Source: a virus
DNA: 20,895 nucleotides
Direction: 5' to 3' (one strand)
IMG/VR virus record: IMGVR_UViG_3300022591_000805
Location: 1 to 20,895 of that record
Each line of letters starts with the position of its first letter. The stretch's first letter is position 1. Under the pieces are notes generated by a model, which was not told the origin of the DNA, ran no database searches, and was given only the letters and a program-made list of their open reading frames with translations. Shown here piece after piece: positions 3,227 to 20,895 of the stretch. The position numbers and the translations under genes were made by a program.

Positions 3227-3242
3227 GAACCACACTCCTTCA

Positions 3243-3962
3243 TCACTTCACGACAGGATTCTCAAACAGCACGCTCGGGCCGGCTGAGCTGTGCGCTTCT
3301 GAAACCTGCTTCCACCCTCCGCTTGCGGCAAACTCATAAATGTGAAACCCTGCGAGCAGGGCGTTGATGACCGCCACCGAACTGCCCAACAGCTCAAGCC
3401 GCCGGGCGCGGTCGATGCATTCGATGAGGAAATAGTCCACATCGGTGAAGCTGGCGCCCAGGCCGCGGATGACCAAAGCCTCCGCGCCTTCCACGTCGAT
3501 CTTGACCAGGCGAATGCGCCCGAGCGGAAGAAAGCCGTCCAAGCGCCGCGTCTGCACCCGGATGGAATAACTGCGGTCGTCGCGGTCGGCCGCTCCCAGA
3601 CTACCAAAGCCGTCATCGTAGCCGGAAGGCAGATAGAAATCAGCTTCCCCGTCAACGTCTGAAAGCGCAAGTTGGTGAGCGGCCACGCTTGGCCAGTGCC
3701 ACTCCTGACAGTTCTGGACCAGCAGGACATGTAGTTTCGGGTTGGGCTCGAACGCCAGCACGCGCGCCCCGCACTTCGCCATGAGGCAGGAGTAATAACC
3801 GACGTGCGCCCCGGCATCGACGGTGAGATCCCCTGGGCGGATGAGCTGGCGCACGCGCTCTGTCTCCGCCTGCTCCCAAACGCCATACTGCTTGATCTGC
3901 GCGCCGATGTAACTTCCGTCAGCCACGCGCAGGCTGAACCCATATTTGGTCTCGACGATCAT
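3243..3962 (-). CDS. FkbM family SAM-dependent methyltransferase
   Basis: This is a 239-residue cytoplasmic methyltransferase that transfers a methyl group from S-adenosylmethionine, in this family usually to a sugar hydroxyl. The SAM-binding motif I is VDAGAHVGYYS (48-58), followed by the acidic FEPNP (71-75). The FkbM signature LVKIDVEGAE (152-161) is present. Length and motif order fit a single complete FkbM domain. The ATG at 3962 forms an ATGA overlap with the stop of the upstream GT-B enzyme; a longer frame to 4373 exists but runs inside that gene. Lying between two glycosyltransferase genes, it probably O-methylates a sugar of the glycan built by its neighbours. The exact substrate is not deducible. 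Confidence 0.88.
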   Translation of the reverse strand: MIVETKYGFSLRVADGSYIGAQIKQYGVWEQAETERVRQLIRPGDLTVDAGAHVGYYSCLMAKCGARVLAFEPNPKLHVLLVQNCQEWHWPSVAAHQLALSDVDGEADFYLPSGYDDGFGSLGAADRDDRSYSIRVQTRRLDGFLPLGRIRLVKIDVEGAEALVIRGLGASFTDVDYFLIECIDRARRLELLGSSVAVINALLAGFHIYEFAASGGWKQVSEAHSSAGPSVLFENPVVK

Positions 3963-4939
3963 ACCGTCACCCTCTGCCGCGCCACCGGCGTTAGGAGCTG
4001 GTCGAGCATGCGTTCCAGGCTCAACTCTTCCTGCACCTTTCGGCACCCGGCCTGCGCGATGGACTCGCGCTCTTCGTCGTGTTCGAGCCAGCGCTTGATC
4101 TGCTTGACGTTTTCCCGGATGTACCCGTGCTCGTAATAGATGATGTGCGTACCATCTGCGAACACTGAAAGGTTCTCCGCGGCCTCGCCCGGCAGGCGCG
4201 GATACATGACAAAGGTTCCGCAGGCCATGACCTCGCACGCCTTGCCGACGATCAGCCGAGAGAGCGGCGGCAGGCAGAAGAATACCTTGATCTGCCGATA
4301 GGTTTTGGCGAGCAGATGCGTCGATTCCGGCTCGCGCATCCCGTCCAACTCCTGCACGCCAACCTGCCCACATTGAAGCGTGATTTGGTCGGGCTGTTGT
4401 GCCATCCGCTGCGCGTACTCGAGACGTGGGCCATAAAGCTGCCCGATGAAGGCGGCGCCGTACTTCTTCTGTTCAGTTAGCCCGACAGAGCCCAGCGATT
4501 TAAACATCGTCGTGTCGGCCCCGAAGGGCTGCCATTGCCCGCCATACTTCTTGGCGTCCTGCGCGGCGGGGAATGACCAGTGCTTCGCCCAGGCAAGTAG
4601 CTCCGGGAGTCGGCCGGGAAGATTCAGATCGGCTCGGTCCATCGACTCATCAAATCGGGCTATCGTCTTCTCGACCAGCGGCGCCCAGGCTTCCAACCCG
4701 TAAAGTGCCGCGAGCCAGGGCTGGGTGTATTCGTGATAAAAGCTAATCACGGCATCGCAGGCGGCAAGCTGCGCGATGGTGGGCAGCTTGGCGCGCATCG
4801 GAACGATGTCGTGAGGTTGGTTGCCGGACAGGACACATTCGGTGACGTCATGCCCCATGCGGCGAAGTGTTTGGGTGTAGCCTCCGAGTGAGGCCCAGCC
4901 TGCAAAGGTGTTGCGAGGAAAGAAGATAGCGAGTTTCAT
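3959..4939 (-). CDS. GT-B glycosyltransferase (CgeB / Glyco_trans_1_2-like)
   Basis: This is a 326-residue protein with the two-Rossmann architecture of GT-B enzymes. The N-terminal half opens with MKLAIFFPRN. In the C-terminal half the segment from KACEVMACGTF to IIYYEHG (about 233-272) matches the donor-binding E...G pattern of glycosyl transferase group 1 proteins, as in CgeB-like spore-coat and phage enzymes. The ATG at 4939 is used; a TTG two codons earlier (4945) is possible, and neither has a close Shine-Dalgarno site. It starts 34 bases after the fibre stop and is coupled to the FkbM gene. This makes it the first sugar enzyme after the collagen-like fibre, which is its most obvious candidate acceptor (inference). 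Confidence 0.78.
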   Translation of the reverse strand: MKLAIFFPRNTFAGWASLGGYTQTLRRMGHDVTECVLSGNQPHDIVPMRAKLPTIAQLAACDAVISFYHEYTQPWLAALYGLEAWAPLVEKTIARFDESMDRADLNLPGRLPELLAWAKHWSFPAAQDAKKYGGQWQPFGADTTMFKSLGSVGLTEQKKYGAAFIGQLYGPRLEYAQRMAQQPDQITLQCGQVGVQELDGMREPESTHLLAKTYRQIKVFFCLPPLSRLIVGKACEVMACGTFVMYPRLPGEAAENLSVFADGTHIIYYEHGYIRENVKQIKRWLEHDEERESIAQAGCRKVQEELSLERMLDQLLTPVARQRVTV

Positions 4940-4972
4940 GTGCAATGACCGGCTTGCCCTTTCTCCTTGCGT

Positions 4973-8464
<3,492 letters not shown>

Positions 8465-8499
8465 CTTGCTCCTCCTGCCAGGATATCAAGGACTTGGAA

Positions 8500-8520
8500 G
8501 GGCGCTCTCCGTGAGCGCCC
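8500..8520 (-). terminator. hairpin between capsid and fibre genes
   Basis: A perfect 8-bp inverted repeat (GGGCGCTC / GAGCGCCC) encloses a 5-base loop, 38 bases past the capsid stop. On the minus strand it is followed only by TTCC, so it is a weak intrinsic terminator at best. An mRNA-stabilising or processing hairpin that keeps capsid expression above fibre expression is equally possible. Confidence 0.5.
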
Positions 8521-8558
8521 CTCCGTCAAGCCAAAACGCCGCTTCGAAGCCCGGTCAA

Positions 8559-10238
8559 TTAGGGCTTCACAAACGGGCCGATGCCGGTGCGCAGAGCCGA
8601 GATCCACGGCATGTAATGCGCCAGCACCTCATGGATGTAGGTGCCGAAGGTCCATTGCCGCGTGACAATCGGCCATTCGATGGCGTAGTAGTCGCGCTGC
8701 AGCAGGAATTGACGAACGGACGGAACCCGCGAATGCGGATACGGGTTCGTGTTGATGTCGTACAGCATCGTTCCCGGAGGAAACATCGGGTGAATCCTGA
8801 TCGGGATGGCTGCCCCGCCCTCGGGATTGATGGAGTACTTCGACTTGTAGCTGGTCACGAGGAAGCCGCCCATCAAGGAGCCCTGGGCGTCCTTGGTGTA
8901 CTGGAAGATGTAGCTGTTCGTCCCAGTCGAGCTGTAGATGACAGCCGATTCCAGCGCGGCGCGCACGTCAGCCGAGCACCAGATGGCGTCGGGTTGCGCC
9001 TGGTAGAGTTCCCAGAGAGTGCGCAGATCGTCTTCCACCTCTTGCACCTGGCCGTTTCCGGCCGGAGTGAACGTCCCACCGCCCATGTCGGTGCAGAGGC
9101 CATTGTTGAACGTGTAGGTTCCCAGGCCGTCCAGGTCGGTCGCCTGGTAGCTGTTGTCAACCGTGAAGCCGGTCGCGTTGCCGGTCTGAATGCCCGTGGC
9201 CTTGGCCGTGATCGTGTAGTTCGGCCACGCGGTGATGGCGCCCAGCGTCAGGACGTCCACCGTGGTGTTGGCGTTGACGCCCCAATACCACGCATAGGCG
9301 ACGGCGCCTTTCTGCGCGGGCAGGGAAGCAAGGACGCTGCCACTGCTGTTCGTGGTGCCCATGGCGACGTTCGAAATCGCCGAGATTCCGCCGGCGACGT
9401 TGATCTTCGTTCCGTCAGCGTTGGTCCGCTCGGTGTAGGCGGTGAGGCCGCGCGCCACGGTTGGCGGGATGTTGTAGCCAGCCTGCCCGCCCGGGTTGAC
9501 GCCCATGGCGGTCAAAGCGACCACCGCCACGGAGACGTTGCTCCCCGTCGCGAGGCCGCCAGCGGCTGAGCCTGTGTCCACGGTCGGAGTGGTGGGCTGC
9601 CCGAGCGCGAAGCCCAGGTTGCCGGTGGTTTGTCCGAGGATGGTGGACGGTCCGGCATTGCCCCATAGCGTGATCATCTCTTCCTGCAAGCGCAGGCGAG
9701 CCAGGTTGCGGAAATGCTCATCCGCCAGGTTGTCGGTGTAACCCTCGCCGGCCCATTGCGCCGTGAAGGTTTCCCCGCCTTCTTCGCCAAGCTCTTTGTA
9801 GGTGGCGAAGTAGTCGGCTTCATCGGGAGTCGCCGTGGCGTTGCGCTGCCCTTCCTTGACGCCCGCATAGACGAACGTTGAGTTGGGGTTAAGCGTTGCC
9901 TTCCAGTGGGCGACCGTGCCGACTCCGGCGTTGACCTTCCCGGTCTTCGGGATCATCTGGATGAACGGGGTGTTCAAGGGGAAGATGAGGTAGGCCGGGC
10001 CCCGCAGGTCATAGAAATTGAATCCCAGGCTGGTGGTCACGCCAGCCTTCATGAGGGCCTTGATGTACTCGCGTCCTGCGCGCTTCACCAGGTCGTTTTC
10101 GAGCGACCACTCTCTGGGCGGCAGGGCTTGGGCTTCAAGGCACAACTTGGCGAGCGTCGCGTCCGTACCGAGCGCTTTCGCCATCCGCTCGCGGCTCGCA
10201 TAAGCCGCGGCAGCGTATAGCTCTTGTTGCAGTTTCAT
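8559..10238 (-). CDS. major capsid protein, HK97 fold with inserted domain
   Basis: This 559-residue protein is the main shell subunit. Its position after protease and scaffold candidate, its large size and the strong ribosome-binding site (GGAGAGAGG before ATG 10238) support this. The N-terminal part has an amphipathic arm, then an E-loop-like region (FIQMIPKTG, AHWKATLNPNSTFVYAG) and a long helix (DEHFRNLARLRLQEEMITLWG). The C-terminal part has P- and A-domain-like features (DLRTLWELYQAQPDAIW, and PSVRQFLLQRDYYAIEWP near the end). Between them, about residues 210-390 are Gly/Thr/Ala/Asn rich and beta-rich, for example GAVAYAWYWG. They look like an Ig- or fibronectin-like insertion exposed on the capsid surface. 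A cleaved delta domain is not obvious. Confidence 0.85.
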   Translation of the reverse strand: MKLQQELYAAAAYASRERMAKALGTDATLAKLCLEAQALPPREWSLENDLVKRAGREYIKALMKAGVTTSLGFNFYDLRGPAYLIFPLNTPFIQMIPKTGKVNAGVGTVAHWKATLNPNSTFVYAGVKEGQRNATATPDEADYFATYKELGEEGGETFTAQWAGEGYTDNLADEHFRNLARLRLQEEMITLWGNAGPSTILGQTTGNLGFALGQPTTPTVDTGSAAGGLATGSNVSVAVVALTAMGVNPGGQAGYNIPPTVARGLTAYTERTNADGTKINVAGGISAISNVAMGTTNSSGSVLASLPAQKGAVAYAWYWGVNANTTVDVLTLGAITAWPNYTITAKATGIQTGNATGFTVDNSYQATDLDGLGTYTFNNGLCTDMGGGTFTPAGNGQVQEVEDDLRTLWELYQAQPDAIWCSADVRAALESAVIYSSTGTNSYIFQYTKDAQGSLMGGFLVTSYKSKYSINPEGGAAIPIRIHPMFPPGTMLYDINTNPYPHSRVPSVRQFLLQRDYYAIEWPIVTRQWTFGTYIHEVLAHYMPWISALRTGIGPFVKP

Positions 10239-10335
10239 GTGCGCCTCTCTCCGATCTGAATTTGACGAGCAACCGGGTGTTTATGTTCCGAGCCGCTGAC
10301 CGGAGACGACTCGCGCAATCTCGATTCCAGGGCTG

Positions 10336-10983
10336 CTACACCTGGACGAACTTCTGCAGCTTGGGGTCGATTCCCGTGGTGGGGATCTCAGCCCCGCCCG
10401 GGCGCGGAATAAGTTGCAAGCCGGGCGGCGTCGGCAGGATGCCGCGCACCGCGTCGGGCACGATCTTGTCGCCCAGCGCCGAGCGCACGCCAGACAGGAC
10501 CATCTTGCGAATCTCGTCCTGAACGGCCGGGTCGGTCTTGAGCATTTCGAGCGCCGAGTGAACGAGCCCCGTGGTCGTCGATTTCACCATGTCCTCGACG
10601 CTGCCGGGAGCGCCAGCGACGGGGTCCGCCGCCTTCACAACCGGCTCAGTTGTCGTCGCCTTCACGGCCGCAATCTTCTCCTCGCCCACGTTGTCCCCCA
10701 ACGTGTCGAGGTGCTCCGCGTGCGCCTTGTGCAGTGCCGCCTTGCCGGCATGGAATTCATGCTTGCTCTTGTGCAGCGCCGCGCATTTGCCGAAGTACGC
10801 TTTGTGCGCATCGCCATCATCCATACTCTCGTGCTTCGCTTTCACGAATTCATGGTGCGCCTTGTGGGCTTCCGCCAAGCCCGCGTGCGCCTCGGAAAGG
10901 GCCTTGTGATGGGCGGCCGCCTTCTTGAAGTGAGAGGCGAGGCCGCTGAACGCCTTCGCCAGTTCATCGATCGTTTTGAACAT
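10336..10983 (-). CDS. His/Ala-rich coiled-coil protein, candidate scaffold
   Basis: This is a 215-residue protein between protease and major capsid genes, the usual place of a scaffolding or decoration protein. Residues about 1-95 are a long Ala/His/Lys/Glu helix in which His recurs every three to four residues (KKAAAHHKALSEAHAGLAEA and similar). This probably forms a coiled coil with one face lined by histidines. The middle is Ala/Thr/Val rich. The C-terminus is short, proline-rich and ends in KLQKFVQV. Start ATG 10983 has AGGAGGA (10991-10997), preceded by a small hairpin. The family is not recognised. The scaffold role is inferred from position, length and helix content; metal binding by the His face is possible. 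Confidence 0.6.
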   Translation of the reverse strand: MFKTIDELAKAFSGLASHFKKAAAHHKALSEAHAGLAEAHKAHHEFVKAKHESMDDGDAHKAYFGKCAALHKSKHEFHAGKAALHKAHAEHLDTLGDNVGEEKIAAVKATTTEPVVKAADPVAGAPGSVEDMVKSTTTGLVHSALEMLKTDPAVQDEIRKMVLSGVRSALGDKIVPDAVRGILPTPPGLQLIPRPGGAEIPTTGIDPKLQKFVQV

Positions 10984-10997
10984 GTTCTGTTCCTCCT

Positions 10998-11012
10998 GCC
11001 GCCTTCGGCGGC
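10998..11012. other. small hairpin next to a ribosome-binding site
   Basis: A perfect 6-bp inverted repeat (GCCGCC / GGCGGC) with a 3-base loop ends directly beside the Shine-Dalgarno site of the His-rich gene. No T-tract follows, so it is not a classical terminator. It may tune translation or mRNA stability in the 60-base gap after the protease gene. Confidence 0.35.
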
Positions 11013-11043
11013 CAGTGAAATGAGCGACCGGGAAAGCTCGTGG

Positions 11044-12447
11044 TTAAGACACGCGGGCGCTGAGATCGGCCCGCACTTCTTCGGACTCTTCCTCGACCAT
11101 TCTCAAGAGCGTGTCGAGGATCGCGTCCACGTTGTCGGCGAGCAGGCCGGGCAGAGGCGAGTCGTCGCCCTCCATCTCGGACTCTCCGGCCGTGCTGTAA
11201 ACCAGATAGGCGAGCGCCTCGACGATCTGCGAGAGTTGCGAAACTTGGCTGAAGCCCTTCGCGAGCCGCCCAAGATCGTTGTCGAGCGTTGCGAGCGCAT
11301 AACCGACGTTGCCGCCTTTGACGGTGCGCTCGATCCGATTGACGTGGATGCGAACGGCCTTGCGCATCCACGCCTGGATCGCCGCGAGCTTCGCCTTCTC
11401 CTCGGCCACGTCGATGCCGTACTTGCCGGCCAGGGCGACCAACTTCTTCCAGGCCGCATCCTTCGCCGCCTGCGGCACGCCCTTGAGCTGGTTGAAGAGG
11501 CTCAGCCCGTTTCGGATGTGGCGCTTCGTCTTGGCCTCGGTCGAGAACTTCACCGGCAAGTTCCAGGTTTCCGTCTCCTCGGGATCGAGCACGATGAGGA
11601 AGGCCGAGGCCGGCAGATCTTCTCCCGCCACACGCTTCGTCCTGGCCTTGGCCAACGCCGTTGACGCGTTGGATGTCAAGCTGACGATCTGGGTCTTCAG
11701 CAATTCCACTTGCTCGCTCAGGACCGCGAAGGTGATTTCTGGCACAGGGGGCTCGACGCGCAGGAACTTGCACAGCTCGACCGTGCCGTCCGCCTTGATG
11801 TGCGTGAAGTGCGCGGTCGCTAGACAGGGGTTGTCGACCAGAGAGATTTCCGAAGGCTCTGCAACGTACCGCTTGCAGCCTTCAAACTTCGGGTCGGGGT
11901 GCATCCCCACGATCTTTCCCCCATGCGAGAAGCCCGTGAGCACCCGCTCCTCAACCTTCTTCCAGGCTGGATCGTCCACCACCTTGAAGCCCATGAAGAT
12001 TTCCTTGTCGGCATCGCGGAACTCGAATCCGATGCACTTCCCCACCGCCTCGAGCTGGTGCATGTAGCGCAGCGGGAAGTAGTTCTCCCCGGCCGTCGCC
12101 TTGCCCATCTCGTCGATCACGGCCTGGTAATAGGGCTTCGAGAGGAGGTAGTCGCAGACCTCGTCGTCCTTGTCCGGCACCTCGGCGGTCACGATCCCCC
12201 AGACCTCGCGGCGCGCCGCGTCTACCTTAGCGAACGGGATGAACTTCGAGAAGGATTTCATGACAGCCTCCTTGGCATTGGGCCCCGCCACAGCGTTAGC
12301 TTGCGCGAAAGCCGAAGACTCCGCGGTTTCCTTGCTCTTCCCATCCTTGATGGCCCGGTCGTAGGCGCTGTTCCAGACTTCACGCCATTGCGCGCGCTTC
12401 TCCTTCGGCACGTAATCCGGGACTTCCTTGACCGACCCGTAAGGCAT
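11044..12447 (-). CDS. ChaB domain fused to prohead protease (XkdF-like)
   Basis: This 467-residue head maturation protease has an N-terminal ChaB-like domain. Residues about 8-55 (PDYVPKEKRAQWREVWNSAY...) match the short ChaB helix-turn pattern. From about 63 the protein begins again as a typical XkdF-type phage serine protease. Candidate catalytic residues are the His in YMHQL, the Ser in TGFSHGGKI and the acidic residue in PSEISLVDNP, by analogy with the S78/HK97 family. A long helical C-terminal part (about 230-467) could act in the procapsid. ATG 12447 follows the portal stop directly (TAAATG) with GAGGAG upstream. An internal ATG at 12261 also has a strong AAGGAGG, so a shorter protease form is possible. 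Confidence 0.78.
   Translation of the reverse strand: MPYGSVKEVPDYVPKEKRAQWREVWNSAYDRAIKDGKSKETAESSAFAQANAVAGPNAKEAVMKSFSKFIPFAKVDAARREVWGIVTAEVPDKDDEVCDYLLSKPYYQAVIDEMGKATAGENYFPLRYMHQLEAVGKCIGFEFRDADKEIFMGFKVVDDPAWKKVEERVLTGFSHGGKIVGMHPDPKFEGCKRYVAEPSEISLVDNPCLATAHFTHIKADGTVELCKFLRVEPPVPEITFAVLSEQVELLKTQIVSLTSNASTALAKARTKRVAGEDLPASAFLIVLDPEETETWNLPVKFSTEAKTKRHIRNGLSLFNQLKGVPQAAKDAAWKKLVALAGKYGIDVAEEKAKLAAIQAWMRKAVRIHVNRIERTVKGGNVGYALATLDNDLGRLAKGFSQVSQLSQIVEALAYLVYSTAGESEMEGDDSPLPGLLADNVDAILDTLLRMVEEESEEVRADLSARVS
12267..12273 (-). promoter_or_regulatory. internal Shine-Dalgarno site in the protease gene
   Basis: AAGGAGG lies five bases before an in-frame ATG (12261) whose product MKSFSKFIPFAKVD is exactly where stand-alone XkdF proteases begin. 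Either a shorter protein is made as well, or this is a relic of a once separate protease gene to which a ChaB gene was fused. Confidence 0.5.
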
Positions 12448-14985
12448 TTATTGCTCCTCAGCCTCAGTTAAAATCAGGGCGCATAAGCAGTTTACGTGTG
12501 CGGGCAAGTCAGGCACATCTTCCACAGGGTACGGGCTGCCGTCAGCAAGTTCATTGCAGACGTCATCCTTGTCGTGATCTTCCGAAAGAAGCCAGGTCAC
12601 TTGCTGGACGATCCCGCTCTGCTTCCACGCCTCAAGGTTGCCTTGCGTCTGAGCTCTGGCGATCTCGTTGCGGGCGATGGTCGAAGCCCTGACATCCGAG
12701 AAGATGCCCGACTGCTCGATGCGGTTCTCCACGTCGCGCAGCGTGATCCGGCCCTCTTGCCCGAACACGTCCGCAATAACGGAGCGCAGCTTGTCACGCG
12801 TCGTGTCGCTGATCGCCCACTTGGGATTCGGGTTGACGATGAACTTGCCTTCAGGCGTCAGCCGCTTCCCAACAAGCTCCGCCGCCCGGTTCGAGGCCCA
12901 TTTGCGTGCCGTCTCGTTGATGCCAGTCAGCATGTCTTCGGCTGAAATCTCCAGCTCGAGTCCCCCCTTGGAAGCGCCCGCCAGGGCCGCATCCGTGAGG
13001 GGTTTCTTCGCCAACCGGGCAATCGTTTCCCACTCGGTGGCAAGACTGTCCATGGCTTGCCGCAGGGTCGCATCGGCGCCCGGCTCGGCCTTGGCCAAAT
13101 GCTCGTGTGGTAGGCCCAGGGCCACAGCCATAATCTTTGCCGTCTTCCGGTGCATGGTGCGGAAGATTTTCGTGAGGTCGCGCTCCAGCTTGTGCCTTCC
13201 AAGGATCGACGCCGGGGCCATGCGGCCCGGATGGATGACGGGCGCTTCTTTCGGCTGGACTTTTCGTTTTGTCACCTGTGCCTGGTCCTCGGAGTGGTTC
13301 GTGATCTCCAAGAAGCCATGCTGCATCGGCTCGGGCTCCGCGATCACGGTTCCAGCCGCGAACCCAATAGGCCGGTTCTGCGTTTCCGCTTTCGCCGCCG
13401 CGCCCCCGTTGGGCTTGTTGGCGCCGGCGGGCTTGCGGGGCTGGCCGCGGCCGTCAGCAACGACGGGGTTTCCATCGGCGTCAAGCTCTTCGTCGCCGCC
13501 GTCTGATGCTCCCGCTCCACCCTTTCTCTTATCAGGAATTCCACCGGCTGCTCCTTCCTCTCCCGGCTTCGCGGCCGGAGTCGTGGTCGCGCCCAGCGGC
13601 ACCGCGCCCTGGCCGGTCGTCACCATCAGCTGGCCAGCTTCGGGCACCCCCGACGGCTCTTCGCCAAGCTTCTCGCGCGCCTCTTCCCGGGTGATGATGG
13701 CTTCCTTGACGTAGGCCGTCAGCACCGTGGATTGCTTCACCGCGTCCGGCTCGATCAGCGGTTCCAGCACCATCTCATAGTCGGTATAGCCCATCTTGCG
13801 CTGGATGATGAAGTCGATGAGGCTTTTGAGCGAGGAGAAGTAGGGCATCAGCCCCTCAACCTCGGAGGCCTCCTGGGATGCTTCCGCCGAAGCTCTGTTC
13901 ATCTGGCGAGCCAGGCGCTGCGGAGAGATGCCGTAGCCGTAGGCGACCTTGCGGATATGCAGTTCATCGAAGGGATCGGCCAGCAAGGGCTCCTTCGTGA
14001 AGATGATCTGCTCGTCCTTGTCGTCATCCTTCCATCCCTGTATGAGTTGCCACTGGCGCCGCTTCGCCAGGTTCCCGGCAAGTTCGGAGTTCATCCACTG
14101 CATGGCCTCGGCGATCTTCTCCGTCGGGACGCCTTTCGGCACGACTTGCACGACGCCCGGGATGGAACCTTCCGTATAATAAGACAGCGTGAATTCCAGG
14201 CGCTTCATGCCGATCTGGATCTCCGGGGCAAGCTCTTCGGTCGGGCTCATGCCGTAGAGTTGCGAGGCGATCGTGTTGCGCGGGACGATGTTGCGGGGCT
14301 TGTAAATCAGCTGATCGGTGGAAAGGTTGACGAGAGGTATTCCCCACCAGAGCTGCGCGTAGGCCGGCTCGGGCGCCATCGGCGTCCATCCGTTCTCGTC
14401 GATGTAACGGACGATGCTATCCCCCCGGAGAACCGGCAACTCCACAATCTCACCCGAGAACGTCTTGCGAATGAGAATCGTCCAGGCGTCGATCACCAGC
14501 ATGTCTTCCAAAAGCGGGCGCAACCATTCCGGCCAGGTGTGCTCGCGGTCGGGCATCTCGAACAAGCGGTTGAGCTTCACCAGGTTCTTGTCGCCAATCC
14601 CGCGCTTCATCGCCGCCTTGGGTCTCTCTCCCGGCTCCGGCTTGGGTTGAATTTGCCAGTTCGCCATGCACATCGAATCCTTGACGTTCTCGATGGCGAT
14701 GCGGGCGAGGGGATACGTCGCCATTTGCTTGAGATCCGCCGCAGAGTATTCAGCGTCGGCGCGGGGAGTCCAGAGCAGGTTCTGCCCGGCATAATACTGA
14801 AAGCCGCGCGGCTCAATGCCAGCCGGCCCAATCGGCTTGACGGGTTGCAGGGGGGAATACCAGGTGTCGGGCTCGACACCGCGGATCGTGTCTTTCGGAG
14901 GTTGGTAGAGTTGCTGGCCGTAGTGGGACAGCGCCGCAACCAGTTGGCCGAGCGGGCGAATTACCAGAGAGGTGCTGTTGGCCAT
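12448..14985 (-). CDS. portal protein fused to MuF head morphogenesis domain
   Basis: This 845-residue protein joins the portal, the dodecameric DNA channel of the head, to a MuF-type minor head protein. Portal features lie at about 20-440: LARIAIENVKDSM, a wing region with LRGDSIVRYIDENGW, and the stem-like helix followed by ISPQRLARQMNRASAEASQEA. A Gly/Ala/Pro-rich linker (about 460-560) follows. The C-terminal MuF part has RDVENRIEQSGI, ARNEIARAQTQGNLEAW and a terminal Cys cluster (DDVC ... HVNCLC), as in head-morphogenesis proteins. ATG 14985 gives MANSTSLVIRPLG but has no clear Shine-Dalgarno site; the GTG at 15048 (21 residues longer) would include the upstream hairpin. Portal and MuF are more often separate genes. 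Confidence 0.86.
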   Translation of the reverse strand: MANSTSLVIRPLGQLVAALSHYGQQLYQPPKDTIRGVEPDTWYSPLQPVKPIGPAGIEPRGFQYYAGQNLLWTPRADAEYSAADLKQMATYPLARIAIENVKDSMCMANWQIQPKPEPGERPKAAMKRGIGDKNLVKLNRLFEMPDREHTWPEWLRPLLEDMLVIDAWTILIRKTFSGEIVELPVLRGDSIVRYIDENGWTPMAPEPAYAQLWWGIPLVNLSTDQLIYKPRNIVPRNTIASQLYGMSPTEELAPEIQIGMKRLEFTLSYYTEGSIPGVVQVVPKGVPTEKIAEAMQWMNSELAGNLAKRRQWQLIQGWKDDDKDEQIIFTKEPLLADPFDELHIRKVAYGYGISPQRLARQMNRASAEASQEASEVEGLMPYFSSLKSLIDFIIQRKMGYTDYEMVLEPLIEPDAVKQSTVLTAYVKEAIITREEAREKLGEEPSGVPEAGQLMVTTGQGAVPLGATTTPAAKPGEEGAAGGIPDKRKGGAGASDGGDEELDADGNPVVADGRGQPRKPAGANKPNGGAAAKAETQNRPIGFAAGTVIAEPEPMQHGFLEITNHSEDQAQVTKRKVQPKEAPVIHPGRMAPASILGRHKLERDLTKIFRTMHRKTAKIMAVALGLPHEHLAKAEPGADATLRQAMDSLATEWETIARLAKKPLTDAALAGASKGGLELEISAEDMLTGINETARKWASNRAAELVGKRLTPEGKFIVNPNPKWAISDTTRDKLRSVIADVFGQEGRITLRDVENRIEQSGIFSDVRASTIARNEIARAQTQGNLEAWKQSGIVQQVTWLLSEDHDKDDVCNELADGSPYPVEDVPDLPAHVNCLCALILTEAEEQ

Positions 14986-14995
14986 CAAATCCAAA

Positions 14996-15027
14996 AGGCC
15001 CGCCCAGCCTTGCAGCCGAGCGGGCCT
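14996..15027 (-). terminator. terminator-like hairpin before the portal gene
   Basis: An 8-bp inverted repeat (AGGCCCGC / GCGGGCCT) with a 16-base loop is followed on the minus strand by TTT, the stem's own final T extending this to four T. It ends 10 bases before the portal ATG. It may stop or slow transcription from the terminase block, or mask the portal start. If translation begins at GTG 15048 it lies inside the coding sequence. Confidence 0.45.
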
Positions 15028-15099
15028 GTTGGTCCTGCGCTTCAGCACTCCAGCGTTCTGTCCCTGGGAAAGGGCCGAGAACGGAATCAGTCAGCCTTC

Positions 15100-15129
15100 A
15101 ACATGCGCTTGTATCTATCCCGCTGTCAA
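15100..15129 (-). promoter_or_regulatory. candidate sigma70-type promoter in the longest gap
   Basis: A perfect -35 box TTGACA (15124-15129) stands 18 bases before CATGTT (15100-15105), which matches TATAAT at only three positions. It lies in the 197-base gap 14986-15182, the only sizeable gene-free stretch of the window, just before the head genes. It is a plausible late-gene promoter, but the -10 is poor. Confidence 0.33.
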
Positions 15130-15182
15130 GTGTTTGTTTGGGGCTCAGCGCAGTTCAGGCCGTGATGGCGGCAATTGTTCTC

Positions 15183-15371
15183 TCACTGTTTTTCTCCCTT
15201 CGGTTTCACGTTCAAAAGATTATCCATGCGCTGGCCCTTGATGTCGGGCGCAACATGCGTTTCAACTTTGGCCACTTTCCTAACCTCTCCGGCGCGCACC
15301 GTGAAGGTGATCTCGCCGTAGAAGGTCGGGCCGAGCTCATCGAGCATCTTGTGCGCCCAGTCATTTAGCAT
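15183..15371 (-). CDS. small protein, possibly DUF2292-like
   Basis: This 62-residue protein starts at ATG 15371, 12 bases after the preceding stop, with GAGG about 10 bases upstream. The core FYGEITFTVRAGEVRKVAKVETHV resembles the short YezD/DUF2292 pattern (a GsItl-vqdGkvvqIe strand pair), so a small beta-hairpin protein that may bind nucleic acid or DNA ends is possible. Resemblance is by eye and weak. The Lys-rich tail KPKGEKQ ends the chain. It is the last gene of the terminase block before the intergenic hairpin. Confidence 0.6.
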   Translation of the reverse strand: MLNDWAHKMLDELGPTFYGEITFTVRAGEVRKVAKVETHVAPDIKGQRMDNLLNVKPKGEKQ

Positions 15372-15383
15372 GATCCCGAATCC

Positions 15384-15725
15384 TCACGCAGCCCGCGGAG
15401 CTGAAGCCATCCGCCGAGCCAGGTCTTCTTTCTCTTCCAACGCGTTCCGGGCAATCGCAGGGGCAACGAAGCCTGGGTCAACCTTCACGATGGGCGGCTC
15501 GAACCACCGGGCGCCACAGACAAGGCAGGTGTGTTGGCAAAGGGTGGCGTTCAGCGGCTTGTCGGTCTTCGAGGCGTCAACCTCGACCGTGCGCAGCCGC
15601 CCGCGCCGATGTGCGCAGACGGGGCAGCGCGCGTTCAGTTCGATTCTAGCCAGCGCCAGCGGCGTCGGCGGTATGATGAGCCGCGCCAGCACGCGCAGGA
15701 ATTGCTTCAGCCAGTGGAAGATCAT
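15384..15725 (-). CDS. zinc-ribbon protein with hydrophobic N-terminus
   Basis: This is a 113-residue protein of unknown function. An N-terminal hydrophobic/amphipathic helix (IFHWLKQFLRVLARLIIPP) is followed by a spaced zinc ribbon, CPVCAHRRG ... CQHTCLVCGARW, and a charged Ala/Glu/Arg helical tail. The ATG at 15725 is chosen, with GGGGTGA upstream; a GTG two codons earlier is possible. It overlaps the preceding zinc-ribbon gene by 80 bases in another frame, which is long for this genome. One of the two starts or stops may therefore be misjudged. It lies between terminase and portal. Confidence 0.6.
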   Translation of the reverse strand: MIFHWLKQFLRVLARLIIPPTPLALARIELNARCPVCAHRRGRLRTVEVDASKTDKPLNATLCQHTCLVCGARWFEPPIVKVDPGFVAPAIARNALEEKEDLARRMASAPRAA

Positions 15726-15861
15726 AATCACCCCGCATTTCGATTTTGGGAAGCCCTCCCCATATAAATCCGCAGCCTTTGCAGATGTCCGCCAGCCAAG
15801 GACTTGGGTTCAACAGCATCACACGCTCGAAGGCCGATCCATTGCATCGAGGACAGTTCAT
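15646..15861 (-). CDS. small zinc-ribbon protein downstream of terminase
   Basis: This is a 71-residue protein starting MNCPRCNGSAFERV, with a second knuckle CKGCGFIWGG at about 28-37. That makes a compact four-cysteine zinc ribbon, often found in small nucleic-acid-binding or protein-binding phage proteins. The start overlaps the terminase stop as ATGA. The last 30 residues (Ala/Gly-rich) overlap the next gene and look less constrained. The function is unknown. It sits among several zinc ribbons in this genome. Confidence 0.62.
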   Translation of the reverse strand: MNCPRCNGSAFERVMLLNPSPWLADICKGCGFIWGGLPKIEMRGDYDLPLAEAIPARAGAAHHTADAAGAG

Positions 15862-17501
15862 CTTCGGCTCTCGTTCGCCTTCATCAGATATTCCCCTCGC
15901 GTCATGCCGTGCCCGTCCGTGGGCTTCGTCTGCTTGTCCGCCCATGTGATGCCGCATTGATTGCAGTGTAAACTCCCGCCCGCCGCCCGAATCACGGTCA
16001 CGGCCCCGCACTCCGGGCAGGTCGGTGCTTGCTCCGGGATCATCGGCTTCACAAGCGTTGTGGCCCGCGCCGTCTTGTTCATGGTGTCCAACACTTTCTG
16101 CGCTCCGCCATCCTTCAGGAAATCTATCAGCCCGAGCGCCTGGCTCCCCAGCATGAGATCCGTCAGCGCCCAGACCAGAGCATCCATCCGGTTCGGCGAC
16201 TTGGCCCCCGGCACATAGGAGCACATCTCATCTTCGAGCTCGGGGAATTCCCCAACGTGATGCACGAGCCCCTGTTCGTACTTCGCGCAGATCGGTTCCG
16301 CGCGCACCAGCTTGCCCCGCGTGGCCGTCACGTCCTTGTAGCTCACATTTTCATCCACGGTCCGAATGGTGGACTGAACCATATCGCCGCCGTAGTTGCG
16401 TTCCCCCGCGATGCGATCCGCCCCCAGGTCGGCATACGTGCTCACGCCGGCCGCCGCCCACCGATCCGGTGTCGGAGCCAGCAGCGAGGCGTCCTTCAGG
16501 ACGTACCCGTGCCCGCGCACATCGATGCCCGCGCCAATAATGCCTGCCTCGGTCGTGGAACTCCCCGAAGGGTCAATTCCCACCACGATGCGAACCAGCG
16601 CTGGTGCTTTATCCACGCGCGTATCATCGATCAATGCCTGCTTCCAGAGGCTGCCCGGGACTTCCGTGGTGTCCTCGGCCAGAATCTCTTGACGGTGCGA
16701 TAGCGCCGTCATGTCTTTCGAAATCTCCGCAAGCGCGTCTTCCGAGATCATCGGGTTAGCATGCGACGGCCAGGAGATGGCAAGCCAGCGGCTCAGACGG
16801 CCCTCTTCCTGCGCCCGCTTCATCTCCTCTTCCGCGCGCTTGAACATCTTGGAAGCGTGGCGAACATCAGAGGCTTTTGTGACGGAGCGAGAATGCAGAG
16901 ACGGCGGGGTGTAAATGAACACGGCATCCCCGTCGTTATCGAGCAGCATCGGCGCTCCGACCCGCTCCCAGGCATCCTCGTTCATCAGTTGCCATTCATC
17001 CAGGATCAGAAGATCGCCATAGTCACCACGCAGGGAGTCCGCGTTCCAAGCCGTCTTGGCCGTGATCGCCTGCTCGGTCCCCTTCAGCTCGATCAGATGC
17101 TTCGTCTCATTCTTGTAATAGATCCCGGCATCGATCGGCTCCGCGAGCGCCCGCGTGATCTCATTCCAGAAGCGATTGATTTGCTCGGTCACGGGCGCGG
17201 CATAGAGAACGCGATGACCCGACAGGAAGGAGCGGACCGCCCGGATGGCAACGCCGGCTGTCTTGCCTCCGCGGCGCCCGGCCCGCACGATGACGCGCTT
17301 GTTGGGCGCTTCAATAAACTCCTTCTGTTTCGGGAAAGCCGGTTCCTTGAGGGCGATGCCTCCGCCCATCTTATCCGGCTGGAGGATGTTCGCCACCTGC
17401 TCGGCCATGTCCACGACCGGCGAGTGCGAGGAGAGGTCTTCCTGGACGCTCACCGTCGAGCTCTTGAGCTGTGGCAGTCTGGGTTGTCGCTTCTTGGCCA
17501 T
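15858..17501 (-). CDS. terL: terminase large subunit with C-terminal zinc ribbon
   Basis: This 547-residue protein is the packaging motor and headful/cos nuclease. Its N-terminal ATPase has Walker A RAGRRGGKT (73-81), Walker B LLILDE (164-169) and a coupling motif YTPP (197-200). The C-terminal RNase H-like nuclease has IVVGIDPSGS with D310 as first metal ligand and NRMDALVWALTDL as the last acidic motif. After the nuclease, about residues 495-520 form a zinc ribbon (CPECG ... CNQCG) not normally part of TerL. It closely matches ribbons on two glycosyltransferases in this window. Start ATG 17501 (MAKKRQPRLP) lies 7 bases after the upstream stop, so translation is probably coupled; no Shine-Dalgarno site is seen. 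Confidence 0.93.
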   Translation of the reverse strand: MAKKRQPRLPQLKSSTVSVQEDLSSHSPVVDMAEQVANILQPDKMGGGIALKEPAFPKQKEFIEAPNKRVIVRAGRRGGKTAGVAIRAVRSFLSGHRVLYAAPVTEQINRFWNEITRALAEPIDAGIYYKNETKHLIELKGTEQAITAKTAWNADSLRGDYGDLLILDEWQLMNEDAWERVGAPMLLDNDGDAVFIYTPPSLHSRSVTKASDVRHASKMFKRAEEEMKRAQEEGRLSRWLAISWPSHANPMISEDALAEISKDMTALSHRQEILAEDTTEVPGSLWKQALIDDTRVDKAPALVRIVVGIDPSGSSTTEAGIIGAGIDVRGHGYVLKDASLLAPTPDRWAAAGVSTYADLGADRIAGERNYGGDMVQSTIRTVDENVSYKDVTATRGKLVRAEPICAKYEQGLVHHVGEFPELEDEMCSYVPGAKSPNRMDALVWALTDLMLGSQALGLIDFLKDGGAQKVLDTMNKTARATTLVKPMIPEQAPTCPECGAVTVIRAAGGSLHCNQCGITWADKQTKPTDGHGMTRGEYLMKANESRR

Positions 17502-17508
17502 AAGATCA

Positions 17509-18237
17509 TTATTGGAGGTTGGCCGACAGCATCGGCGTATTGGACAAGTGGGCCAGCCGCACGAATCCATCCGAGACTTCTCGCAGCGCCCGCTGTACCG
17601 CTTCCTTTTCCCGGTCATCCCGGAGCTGCGCCATCAAACCGACAAAGGCCTTGCGGACCAACTTCGCGAGCCCGCTGAAAAGCATTTGCATTTGCATGAG
17701 GGTTACGATTTGCTGGCTCTGCACTTGATGCTTCTTGATCGAGTCAATCAGCCTGCGAACCTTTTCGATCAGATCCCCGACTTCCTCCCAGCGCTGAAGC
17801 TCTGCCCGGCCCGCCTTCAGAGCCGAGATCATTTCATTGAGCGCGACCCTTTGCGCCGGAACGTCTCCCTTGCGTTGCGCCAGCTCCATCGCGTCCTGCC
17901 ATTTGAAGACATCTTCCCAGATCGCGCCCCGCTTCCCAATCTCTCCCAACACTTCAACCATCCGGCTCTGCAGCACGGCGACCAGCCGGCCCAGGGATAG
18001 AAGCTCCGGATCCCGCGACATCTTGGCGAACCGCTCAGCCAGGGATGGAGGCATGACCTTCGAGAATTCACCCGTCTTGTATGTCCCGCTGGCGATTCCC
18101 TTCAAGCTCGTCCCCCCGTGCATCCGGCATCGTTTGCCGCCCCTCACCGCAAAAGACTTGCAGGGATGTCCCGTGCTCCGCGCTTTCGCCCCGCAGCGTT
18201 GTATGGGGTGTTCCTCAACGTTAGGCGTGTCAGGCAT
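17509..18237 (-). CDS. HGG-motif protein, probable terminase small subunit
   Basis: This is a 242-residue protein immediately before terL. Near its N-terminus it has RCGAKARSTGHPC ... CRMHGGTS, the Cys/His-containing HGG motif common in phage proteins encoded beside the large terminase. The rest is almost entirely helical and charged (long runs of Glu/Lys/Arg with Leu/Val spacing), consistent with oligomerisation. I infer the DNA-recognising small terminase role from motif and position; no clear helix-turn-helix is seen. ATG 18237 (MPDTPNVEEH) overlaps the FolE fragment's stop by 8 bases. The longer frame to 18285 would lie within that fragment. Confidence 0.68.
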   Translation of the reverse strand: MPDTPNVEEHPIQRCGAKARSTGHPCKSFAVRGGKRCRMHGGTSLKGIASGTYKTGEFSKVMPPSLAERFAKMSRDPELLSLGRLVAVLQSRMVEVLGEIGKRGAIWEDVFKWQDAMELAQRKGDVPAQRVALNEMISALKAGRAELQRWEEVGDLIEKVRRLIDSIKKHQVQSQQIVTLMQMQMLFSGLAKLVRKAFVGLMAQLRDDREKEAVQRALREVSDGFVRLAHLSNTPMLSANLQ

Positions 18238-18457
18238 GAGAAGCCCTTCCCCCGAACACAATCGCCAAGAACTCCCGGCGCGCATCCGGACTGTAGCGGA
18301 AGATTCCCCGGAGCACCGATGTGGTCATCTCGGCCGTCTTCTGGATTCCCCGCATCGACATGCAGACGTGCTCACCGCGAGCCATGACGGCGACGTCCTT
18401 CGTTCCGGTCTTCCTCGTTACTTCATCGGCAATATCATGTACTAAACGTTCCTGCAC
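18230..18457 (-). pseudogene. folE: GTP cyclohydrolase I (FolE) C-terminal fragment
   Basis: The frame encodes 75 residues matching only the last third of GTP cyclohydrolase I. QERLVHDIADEV corresponds to the family's QVQERLT-QIA, EHVCMSMRG carries the third zinc ligand Cys, and TSVLRGIF...REFL is the terminal helix. The family is usually about 180-220 residues. The first two zinc ligands (CEHH region) and most of the active site are missing, and the frame meets a stop just upstream of ILQVQERL. The enzyme makes dihydroneopterin triphosphate, precursor of folate and 7-deazaguanines. The fragment alone cannot catalyse this. It follows a QueD-like gene, so both may be remnants of one pathway cassette. 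A GTG at 18457 could still start a short protein. Confidence 0.8.
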
Positions 18458-18563
18458 TTGAAGGATGAGTCAGATCCTCGATGCACGTCCACGTCCGGGC
18501 GTCGGCAGCGAGGAAGTAAATTGGTCCTTCGGCCGGATCGAACTTACTTCCTCCGGTTTTCAT
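18435..18563 (-). CDS. short 42-residue ORF between QueD-like and FolE fragment
   Basis: An ATG overlapping the QueD-like stop (TGATG) opens a 42-residue frame, MKTGGSKFDPAEG followed by PIYFLAADARTWTCIEDL and a short polar tail. It overlaps the first codons of the FolE fragment in another frame. It fills the only space between the two genes. It may be a real small gene or the scar left where the front of folE was lost. No family is recognised. Confidence 0.35.
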   Translation of the reverse strand: MKTGGSKFDPAEGPIYFLAADARTWTCIEDLTHPSSAGTFST

Positions 18564-18907
18564 CATGGCATACAGGCGACGATGGCTCCGCACTCCCCGT
18601 CTTCGGATACCGAGACTTCAATCTTGCGGCCCGGAAATTGCTGCTTCACCTGTTCGGCGATCGCGCAAGCCATATTCTCACAGGAAAGAGAGCCCATTCG
18701 GCCTCCCGGGAAGTACTTCTTCGCAAGATCGAGCAGATTGTGATATTCAACCTCGCGCTCGGAATGATGGACGTGCATGATCACTTCAACGTAGAAAAGA
18801 TGCCGATGCTCCGCCCGAAGGTACTCGCGTGGCGCCGGAGCGTTCGGCCAGCAGTGCCAGCCTTCGGCGCGGAACGTGACCTTAGCGAACATCTCAAGAT
18901 TTGACAA
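18563..18907 (-). CDS. QueD / 6-pyruvoyl-tetrahydropterin synthase-like protein
   Basis: This 114-residue protein has the T-fold pattern of the QueD/PTPS family. His18 in EGWHCW and the pair His34 and His36 in AEHRHLF correspond to the three zinc-binding histidines, and Cys19 lies near the usual catalytic Cys. SCENMACAIAEQV matches the family's T-x-E-N-helix, and EVSVSEDGECGAIV the last strand. The family converts dihydroneopterin triphosphate into 6-carboxy- or 6-pyruvoyl-tetrahydropterin, leading to queuosine/preQ0 bases. It is slightly short, and the usual HGH is HRH. The start is TTG 18907, six bases after GGAGG; ATG 18892 lies too far from it. It overlaps the ParB-type gene by 14 bases. 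Confidence 0.72.
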   Translation of the reverse strand: MSNLEMFAKVTFRAEGWHCWPNAPAPREYLRAEHRHLFYVEVIMHVHHSEREVEYHNLLDLAKKYFPGGRMGSLSCENMACAIAEQVKQQFPGRKIEVSVSEDGECGAIVACMP

Positions 18908-19664
18908 TGGATTCCTCCCCCTTGATTTCAGACCAGCGATCCAGGATGTGGCCGCAGATGTAAGGGTCCGGCTGGACGAGAACGACCTTCGTGGCCTTGT
19001 CAGCCTTGACCGTCAACAGGACGTAAGGGCCCGGATAGGGCGCGAAGATGACGCCGGCGCCATCCAGATCTTTTTTCCAGGCTTCCCATCCGGTCAACAC
19101 GTCCTCGCAGTAGAGGATGTGCTTGCCCACCTTCCACCTGTCCCCCTGCTCAACGGTATGCTTGGGATCTTCGATGGTAACTTGCGTGAGGTCCAAGAGC
19201 TTGCCATCTGATCCGATTTCGGTTCCCAGAAGCTTCGCCATCTCATCATCGGACCAGAACTTGCCCAACTGCTCCCGACCCAGGTCTCGCAATACCGCAT
19301 CATCCCAATCGAGATTAACCTCACCGACACGGTTCTGGAAGATCGAGAGCATTCGGGCACGCGGGTCCTTCAAGAGGTCCAGGTCGGTTCTCTTGTGAAT
19401 GACCGGCCTCTTCCCGTCTGTCTCGACGATCAGCGGATCGTCGAACCCCAATTCAACCAGCTTTTCAAGACGCTGATTGCCGCTGATCGTCAAGCCGTTC
19501 CGATCGACAGTCAGTGAATCTCCGAAGCCACATGACCGGAGGGAATCCTCCATCATGCCCCCGCCGCGTTCGGTGTGCTTATTGGGATTCGTTGGGTCGG
19601 GCTTCGCCACGTCGGCAAGCTTTACACCGTTTGGCGTTTTCGCGGGTGCGGCTGGCGTTCGCAT
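18894..19664 (-). CDS. ParB-like domain protein with methyltransferase-like tail
   Basis: This is a 256-residue protein. Residues about 14-100 form a ParB/sulfiredoxin-type domain: PDPTNPNKHTERG, then TISGNQRLEKLVELG in place of the usual GxRRLxAA motif. Residues 173-185 (EQGDRWKVGKHIL) and the end (VQPDPYICGHILDRWSEI) look like the first and last segments of the DNA methyltransferases commonly fused to ParB domains. The central SAM-binding and catalytic parts appear to be absent; only FAPYPGPY lies between. It may bind DNA or a partner without methylating. ATG 19664 is chosen because AGGAGGTG (19670-19677) lies five bases upstream; the frame could extend to 19688. Confidence 0.7.
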   Translation of the reverse strand: MRTPAAPAKTPNGVKLADVAKPDPTNPNKHTERGGGMMEDSLRSCGFGDSLTVDRNGLTISGNQRLEKLVELGFDDPLIVETDGKRPVIHKRTDLDLLKDPRARMLSIFQNRVGEVNLDWDDAVLRDLGREQLGKFWSDDEMAKLLGTEIGSDGKLLDLTQVTIEDPKHTVEQGDRWKVGKHILYCEDVLTGWEAWKKDLDGAGVIFAPYPGPYVLLTVKADKATKVVLVQPDPYICGHILDRWSEIKGEESIVKS

Positions 19665-19954
19665 GAATCCACCTCCTGTGTCGGACATATTATAAGCCCG
19701 GTTTGCCTTTGCAGAATATCAATTCCTTTGCGAATACGATAAGCGTCAATCGAGCACTGCAAGAGCTGCACGGTCTCCGCACACGCCGTACCACAAACGC
19801 GCCAGAACGAACCCAACAGGACGGCCACTAGAAGCCCGCAATAAACGCACAGCGTCCAGCCGCGCAGAGCGTTCGCGTCAAGCAAGGTCATGACCAGAAG
19901 CGCCGAAAGCACGCCCAAGGCCCAGGCCGTGAAGGTTCGAAAATCGTTGACCAT
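19622..19954 (-). CDS. small Cys-containing membrane protein
   Basis: This is a 110-residue protein with two hydrophobic segments, about 8-25 (FTAWALGVLSALLVMTLL) and 33-48 (TLCVYCGLLVAVLLGSF), separated by a short loop. A polar, basic C-terminus ends in PHPRKRQTV. Several Cys residues flank the second segment. Topology would be a hairpin in the inner membrane. Size and topology would fit a holin-like or accessory membrane protein, but position in a nucleotide-modification block does not support lysis, and no family is recognised. ATG 19954 follows the methyltransferase stop by a few bases, using that gene's AAGGAG as ribosome-binding site. It overlaps the ParB-like gene by 43 bases. Confidence 0.55.
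   Translation of the reverse strand: MVNDFRTFTAWALGVLSALLVMTLLDANALRGWTLCVYCGLLVAVLLGSFWRVCGTACAETVQLLQCSIDAYRIRKGIDILQRQTGLIICPTQEVDSCERQPHPRKRQTV
19670..19677 (-). promoter_or_regulatory. ribosome-binding site deciding the ParB-like start
   Basis: AGGAGGTG, a perfect anti-16S match, lies five bases before ATG 19664 and inside the 3' end of the upstream membrane-protein gene. It favours this start over the in-frame ATG at 19688, which has no such site. Confidence 0.7.
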
Positions 19955-19957
19955 GAT

Positions 19958-20680
19958 TCATAGCTCCTTTCCCATGATGTCGTCGAAAAGCTCCTTCGTC
20001 ATTTTCAGCTTCGGCTCAAAGAGCGTGGGCTGCGCCTCGACCAGGGCGATCCGTTCGCGGGCGATGCGGCAATATTCCTCGCTGATTTCAAACCCCAGGA
20101 AGTGGCGGCCCAGCTTCTTGGCGGCCACTGCGGTGGTGCCGCTGCCCAGGAAGGGGTCAAGGATGGTTTCGGCGTCACCCGCCCTATCGACTTGCTTGAT
20201 ACACCAGAGCATCAAATCGAGGGGCTTCTGCGTGGGGTGCTCCGCCCCATCCAACATTAACGCCACACGATTCAGCACGAACACCCGAAGAGCAAGATCA
20301 AAAGACGTGAATGCAAGCTCTGCGTCAGACGAGCAAATGCGCTGCCCCTTGTCCCAGACAAGCCACCCCATTTTCGCGGGAAGATTACGGGTGAAATAAT
20401 TCCCCCCCCAGATAACCTGAGCCGTCGATACACGGAAAATTTCCAGGAATATAGCATCCGATGGCGGAGCTGAATCCCATCCCTTGAATTCATAAGCCTT
20501 TCTCTCCCCATGCCGAGAAGTGCTTGCCTTCATTCCGTCACGCCCGATTCCATCCGGCGGATCAGTAATGACCGCATCCACACAGCCATCGGGCAGCGCC
20601 TTCATCAACTCCAGGCAATCCCCGCAGACCACAGTGCAGCAGCGATAGGGGCCAAGCATCCTTCCGCATCCTTCAGGCAT
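19958..20680 (-). CDS. DNA methyltransferase (N6-Ade/N4-Cyt type, beta order)
   Basis: This 240-residue protein has motif IV first (ITDPPDG, 38-44) and the SAM-binding motif I later (ILDPFLGSGTT, 173-183), followed by GRHFLGFEIS. That order defines the beta class of amino-methyltransferases. HPTQKPLDLMLWCI (149-162) is the typical motif X region. Motif IV reads DPPD where DPPY is normal. The aromatic residue there stacks on the flipped base, so activity may be reduced or altered. No target-recognition domain of its own is evident. ATG 20680 is chosen because AGGGGGTG precedes it and it overlaps the HNH stop by 8 bases; the frame could extend to 20818 but would cover the HNH gene. It may protect phage DNA from host restriction. 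Confidence 0.85.
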   Translation of the reverse strand: MPEGCGRMLGPYRCCTVVCGDCLELMKALPDGCVDAVITDPPDGIGRDGMKASTSRHGERKAYEFKGWDSAPPSDAIFLEIFRVSTAQVIWGGNYFTRNLPAKMGWLVWDKGQRICSSDAELAFTSFDLALRVFVLNRVALMLDGAEHPTQKPLDLMLWCIKQVDRAGDAETILDPFLGSGTTAVAAKKLGRHFLGFEISEEYCRIARERIALVEAQPTLFEPKLKMTKELFDDIMGKEL

Positions 20681-20894
20681 TCCACACCCCCTGAGCATAG
20701 CGCTGGCGGCGACGTAACAGGCGACATGGAATACATCTCCTACCTGTCTTGCTCTGTGTGTAGGAGCCTCCACATTTGGGGCACACAGTTTTTCGAGCGT
20801 GGCTTGCCGAGAACCCATTTCCGAAGAGGATATTTTCTTTTAGGCTAATTGCCCGAAGGTGAGAGGGGTTGACGCATTTACGGTTACGACATAG
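20673..20894 (-). CDS. HNH endonuclease, 3' part (cut by window edge)
   Basis: The frame enters from the right edge and encodes 73 residues. CRNRKCVNPSHLRAISLKEN is the second half of the HNH metal-finger motif (the N..H region). It is followed by NGFSASHARKTVCPKCG and a Cys knuckle (CIPC), the usual tail of phage HNH nucleases. A basic end (RLLRRRQRYAQG) and a stop at 20673 close the gene. The first His strand lies outside the window. Such enzymes act as free-standing homing nucleases or as nicking partners of the terminase during cos cleavage. It overlaps the methyltransferase start by 8 bases, so the two are probably cotranslated. Confidence 0.82.
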   Translation of the reverse strand, partial: LCRNRKCVNPSHLRAISLKENILFGNGFSASHARKTVCPKCGGSYTQSKTGRRCIPCRLLRRRQRYAQGVWNA

Positions 20895-20895
20895 A

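Follow-up and report, generated by a model that had tools for sequence, protein, structure and literature searches.

DpdA has a described role in the 7-deazaguanine modification of phage DNA (Hutinet et al. 2019, PMC6884629), and cassettes of this kind lie intact in other phages. In Microbacterium phage Megan the order is tgt, queC, two hypothetical genes, queD, queE, folE and terL, and locus L195 carries dpdA-like, queD-like, queD, queE, folE and TerS-like genes. Loci L240 and L246 have a common order on one strand, namely queD-like, dpdA-like, ParB-like, transporter-like, queD, queE, folE, a small gene and TerL. The PHROG names come from L246, to whose genes the nine of L240 are 68–90% identical; the transporter-like gene belongs to phrog_4899, a family of unknown function that we take to be a transporter. 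The dpdA-like genes tested (L245, L195, L192 and L246) match phrog_887, named 'queuine tRNA-ribosyltransferase', and Pfam names none of the five dpdA-like parent genes tested. From this setting and from the role described for DpdA (PMC6884629), we infer that a phrog_887-type gene in such surroundings is DpdA-like.

The window analysed here, a virus record of 20,895 bases that agrees with the start of a 34,134-bp contig (IMGVR_UViG_3300023311_000170), resembles the cassettes of L240, L246, L195, Megan and PMC6884629 in having a QueD-like gene, the start of a dpdA-like gene, the end of folE and an adjacent terminase gene. Unlike them, it has lost its middle: the FolE N-terminus, QueC, QueE and phrog_887 (E ≤ 10) were all unmatched in the 34-kb contig. 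Sequence comparisons lead us to propose that the headless folE is most likely the deletion scar of a 7-deazaguanine cassette, in which the start of a dpdA-like gene would be fused out of frame to the end of folE.

Profile searches and solved FolE chains were used to define the folE remnant, and the profile matches confirmed the open frame at 18230–18457 (minus strand; 75 amino acids from a GTG) as the C-terminal part of GTP cyclohydrolase I, corresponding to about 39% of the enzyme. The frame matched positions 110–177 of the 179 in PF01227 (E 7.1e-18), passing the 27-bit domain cut-off with 65.1 bits, a score to which C-terminal positions alone contribute. The match to TIGR00063 (positions 109–178 of 180) reached 65.6 bits against a cut-off of 181.6 and thus fell short of a whole-enzyme FolE, and that to phrog_2197 extended over positions 129–197 of 200. 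FolE homology can be followed from 18463 (LQVQERL) onwards, beginning two codons ahead of the GTG, which sits inside the QVQERL motif and is the first start codon of the frame; an in-frame stop lies at 18472–18470, four codons before the GTG. An earlier, sequence-only reading had fitted the frame to GTP cyclohydrolase I from QVQERL to the end and had placed a stop just upstream, and both observations hold in all three profiles and in the DNA. Its estimate that the C-terminal third survives was right in leaving the C-terminal part alone but slightly low in the fraction, since about 61% of FolE is missing when judged by the L195 enzyme, in which the motif lies at residue 122 of 196. The L195 FolE is also the closest match to the fragment among the compared loci (57%).

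The solved FolE chains 1gtp and 1fbx (221 residues), which we take to be those of E. coli, align over residues 149–217 with positions 4–71 of the fragment. The zinc ligands of E. coli FolE are Cys110, His113 and Cys181. Two of these, in the CEHH motif, are absent from the headless frame, as the earlier reading stated, but the third is kept: Cys36 of the fragment falls at position 181 by counting from the aligned ranges (the three printed alignments, from other species, have a single gap, no earlier than residue 45). By the same counting, the roughly 69 C-terminal residues of the fragment resemble GTP cyclohydrolase I in having Gln, Glu, His, Cys and Arg at E. coli positions 151, 152, 179, 181 and 185, all presumably functional. 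The columns of Cys181 and of Glu152, His179 and Arg185 are invariant in our alignment of FolE sequences (A3). Unlike the enzyme, the fragment lacks the N-terminal part entirely, and with it the CEHH motif and the SKxxR stretch. An AF2 model of 79 residues of the fragment (pLDDT 84) matched FolE structures at TMq 0.69–0.79 in the 50 rows listed, although the model was built on an alignment from complete enzymes and thus does not demonstrate folding of the fragment alone.

A near match to the fragment (55% identity over its length) is the FolE of Streptomyces rimosus, in an apparent queD-queE-folE cluster (L187 4424–6222) whose neighbours were named by eye and which we take to be of the toyocamycin/sangivamycin type. 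That FolE, unlike the fragment, is full length and lies in a bacterial genome; the likeness is a hint that phage cassettes and secondary-metabolite clusters exchange genes.

Directly upstream of the fragment is a 43-codon frame (18435–18566, minus strand), which would comprise the 5' remnant of a Tgt/DpdA-like gene followed by out-of-frame folE DNA up to a TGA. It had no significant match in PHROGs, NCBIfam or the phage and plasmid searches, and in viral_contigs its sole match was the phage itself. We considered it as an unrelated small gene and rejected that identity after comparison with the loci of the QueD-like gene by tblastn and HMM. In the compared loci, tblastn matched it to the 5' ends of long genes that neighbour QueD-like genes of other phages, the best being L245 (44% over 32 residues, E 1.5e-4). 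A dpdA-like N-terminal HMM, built from 14 of the 16 closest N-termini (two were missed by the motif pattern), gave the frame 29.9 bits (E 1.1e-8). Among the 491 pieces searched this HMM listed the frame twice, the second time as its own longer six-frame piece (28.7 bits), and the next unrelated piece scored 6.9 bits; of 2000 shuffles, 1575 were reported, with a best reported score of 7.5 bits. Judged by these comparisons, the 43-codon frame is the start of a Tgt/DpdA-like gene. The homology spans residues 1–26 by HMM (to 18489) or 1–32 by tblastn (to 18471), and the catalytic TIM-barrel region is absent.

The dpdA-like 5' end and the folE 3' end therefore meet within 18463–18489, the putative deletion junction zone, in different reading frames. 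Coding-like base composition is kept by the folE fragment, with a GC content of 0.59/0.47/0.68 by codon position, and not by the 43-codon frame. The fragment overlaps the out-of-frame tail of the dpdA-like remnant by 23 nt and the presumed TerS start (ATG 18237) by 8 nt, so that the earlier description of an intact frame with clean overlaps was correct as to the open frame but not as to the overlaps, which are unlike those of a normal gene.

On the other side of the stub lies an intact QueD-like (PTPS-fold) gene (18563–18907, minus strand, start TTG), whose TGA overlaps the ATG of the 43-codon frame as ATGA; the queD-like and dpdA-like genes of L240 and L246 overlap in the same way. It matched phrog_17812 (E 1.5e-17) and, weakly and below the cut-off, Pfam PTPS (E 0.026). 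An AF2 model of the protein (pLDDT 96) superimposed on E. coli QueD (4ntk) with Z 13.2 and an rmsd of 2.1 over 109 residues. The family phrog_17812 (function unknown) represents a second type of QueD-like protein, which keeps company with Tgt/DpdA-like and FolE genes and also occurs in cassettes with a normal QueD (L195, L246); H18, H34, H36 and C76-E77 are invariant in 46 sequences. It may be linked to the modification enzymes of Cui et al. 2023, perhaps under a name such as DpdL; a literature search for a DpdL-type name of the QueD-like protein found none.

The genes around QueD-like genes were compared in 79 other loci. In 56 of them a FolE gene was found within the examined flank of up to 6 kb, and its N-terminal part is present in all 56; this count sets aside the phage's own locus and includes several near-duplicates, and L192 is cut by a contig end. 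The remaining 23 have no FolE within the examined flank. The dpdA-like genes form one family in 39 of the 79 loci and adjoin the QueD-like gene in 28, directly upstream in 22 and directly downstream, as in the window, in six. Between the points equivalent to the two breakpoints there are 3,313 bases in L246 and 3,325 in L240. Because the L240/L246 order runs from queD-like and dpdA-like genes to folE and the terminase, a deletion of about 3.3 kb in it would yield the present layout.

The match to this order does not extend to the dpdA-like subfamily. The N-terminal motif of the stub is present in 16 of the 39 dpdA-like frames, 14 of which trained the profile; the two untrained carriers, L191 and L202, scored 53.8 and 61.2 bits. 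In 14 of the 16 the motif-bearing gene immediately precedes queD-like, in L267 and L269 it is non-adjacent, and the motif is found in none of the six loci with the dpdA-like gene directly downstream. The dpdA-like genes of L240 and L246 are without it, and we accordingly no longer treat these loci as complete stand-ins for the parent, which slightly lowered our confidence in the deletion and slightly raised that in a misassembly. The exact parent, with a motif-bearing dpdA-like gene downstream of queD-like, was not seen intact in any of the 79 loci; that order is known only from the scar and, unlike the intact cassettes, was nowhere seen complete.

We suggest that a 7-deazaguanine DNA-modification cassette was formerly present just upstream of the terminase genes, in this phage or in the source of its cargo, with the order queD-like, then dpdA-like, and folE last. 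A deletion would have taken the DNA from about codon 26–32 of the dpdA-like gene to about codon 120–130 of folE and joined the two ends out of frame. It would have left the intact queD-like gene, a coupled 43-codon dpdA stub and a headless folE 3' end that overlaps the start of the presumed TerS gene. In favour of this reading, dpdA-like homology stops at 18489–18471 where FolE homology starts at 18463, and genes of the same pathway abut; intact cassettes with such an order occur elsewhere. Against it, the dpdA match is short (26–32 residues), the junction comes from near-identical contigs that possibly share reads, and the undecayed FolE fragment fits continued selection equally well. A recent deletion scar was one of two options in the earlier reading, and it gains a second breakpoint here, with the upstream frame placed at the 5' end of a dpdA-like gene. 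The comparison cassettes back that option as far as an intact folE near a QueD-like gene is concerned, but the L240/L246 order fits with a dpdA-like gene of another subfamily.

The loss may have been a single event that included queD and queE, and the FolE fragment would now be inert. The deletion is probably recent because the fragment shows no decay. With the enzyme that inserts the base and the one that starts its biosynthesis both lost, the lineage would be unable to make the modification on its own, barring replacements elsewhere in its genome, outside the contig. A deletion is an ordinary kind of event. Among the titles and abstract openings listed for phage 7-deazaguanine genes, truncated phage folE, dominant-negative or truncated FolE decamers and deletions or pseudogenes of deazaguanine genes, there was no report of such a case. 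The locus is a probable instance of a phage losing its DNA-modification cassette in which both breakpoints can be placed; it would show a route by which such cassettes decay, and it cautions against taking a lone 'folE' annotation in a phage as an active pathway.

The survival of the folE end could be explained by the gene that follows. The gene at 17509–18237 (minus strand) is presumed to be that for the terminase small subunit (TerS) from its position beside the terminase large subunit gene (TerL; 15858–17618, minus strand, identified by profile matches). A match to phrog_3678, of unknown function, covers its residues 11–47 only, and a counterpart with 47% identity occupies the same position in L019, L020 and L022–L025. 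Its ATG (18237) falls within the final codons of the folE remnant and is preceded, within the folE end, by GGGGGAAGGG (by eye), probably the TerS ribosome-binding site. The presence of the presumed TerS start and probable ribosome-binding site inside the folE end could account for the retention of that end.

TerL was used to find related phages, the closest being L018–L020 and L022–L025 (74–87% identity; L021 is the phage's own contig). The compared parts of these loci contained no FolE or QueD-like match. L022 has a 64% match to the gene at window 19622–19954, and from there to TerS its slot is filled by other genes; the slot upstream of TerS therefore seems to hold exchangeable cargo. In the same slot, L022 7669–9084 encodes a 471-amino-acid protein that by eye resembles a GHKL-type ATPase. 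A full-length folE at this locus in related phages, for which the earlier reading had proposed to look, was thus not found in the compared parts of this set.

An assembly artefact, in which two parts of one intact cassette or of two phages were wrongly joined, is unlikely. The junction was seen in the window and one near-identical contig alone, two assemblies that may share reads, and the exact parent gene order was not seen. Window and contig differ by 2 mismatches over 10233–20895 and 5 over 2451–20895, with none near the junction, which argues against a false join, although collapse of a mixed population could still produce such agreement. A further argument against it is that both pieces at the join come from a single pathway and share a strand, flanked by a fitting QueD-like gene on one side and a terminase gene on the other.

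The absence of decay in the fragment suggests either that its front was lost recently or that constraint persists. With relatives at least 58% identical left out of each training set, the fragment scored 98.4 bits against the FolE profile, above 58 of 72 other distinct domains. Where the 64 other rows of alignment A3 do not vary, the fragment has the family residue in 10 of 10 columns, and it has it in 3 of 3 others with at least 90% conservation. A short protein made from the GTG (or from an internal ATG), which would dock into the host FolE decamer and poison or redirect host pterin synthesis, would be in keeping with this conservation, with the open, coding-like frame and with the model of a compact half of the FolE fold. 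We nevertheless consider it slightly more doubtful than a false join. No headless FolE was found among 90 relatives (the 80 best of at least 547 confirmed loci, 2 genome loci and 8 other loci; 73 of the 90 frames distinct), full length being scored as at least 90 residues with HH or CEH open upstream; L004, L009 and L011, outside this count, are also full length. The same was true of the 56 cassette FolE genes near QueD-like genes, and a recurrent 'headless FolE' architecture was rejected on both counts. No ribosome-binding site was seen by eye before the GTG, and ribosomes from the upstream frame, which is the stub of another gene, would cross the headless start in another frame. The structural model was built on an alignment from complete enzymes. 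The position of the GTG inside the motif, the out-of-frame joint and the uniformly full-length relatives likewise weigh against the other option of the earlier reading, in which a short protein is retained and enters the host decamer. We give marginally less credence still to the fuller version, in which a selected half-FolE would enter the host decamer and change the flow of GTP towards folate or preQ0, while the queD-like gene and dpdA stub would serve only as its leader. If the fragment were kept for function, it would represent a novel means for phages to influence pterin synthesis in the host; nothing here requires it.

Least probable is a split enzyme, whose N-terminal part would come from another phage gene or be connected through an intron, intein or frameshift: the break falls at a highly conserved motif, such motifs being favoured sites of introns and inteins, and the genome is incomplete if the phage is as long as its relatives on contigs of 55,580 and 65,728 bases, but the dpdA-like stub, together with the stop four codons ahead of the GTG, accounts for the break. 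PF01227 at E ≤ 10 found the C-terminal fragment alone in the 34-kb contig. A profile of FolE N-termini, run against six-frame pieces of at least 15 residues from the window and from 17000–34134 of the sister contig, gave nothing below E 13, although a profile from the same alignment detects the N-terminal part in 56 of the 56 other FolE genes near QueD-like genes. Rfam gave no match at gathering scores in L002, the locus spanning the region. With these searches empty, a hidden N-terminus was rejected, and the frameshift error restoring a full folE that the earlier reading had entertained was likewise sought in window and sister contig and not found.

Several observations concern the flanking genes. 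A distant DNA search of 17400–20895 found one 81-base match among phages, to a Rhizobium phage methylase, and none among plasmids; promoter and terminator scans gave 0 and 3 sites, compared with 1.2 and 3.3 expected by chance. The ParB/methyltransferase gene adjoining the QueD-like gene (18894–19688, minus strand) matches only positions 41–209 of the 633 in phrog_498 and has APYPGPY where we would expect a DPPY-type motif; it is possibly another shortened cargo gene. The methyltransferase gene at 19958–20818 (minus strand) reads DPPD at window 20554 and DPPY in the sister contig, a difference that lies near the contig end and is perhaps an error. For TerL, the top-listed match among isolated phages is Methanosarcina virus MetMV, with 57% identity over 63% of the protein.
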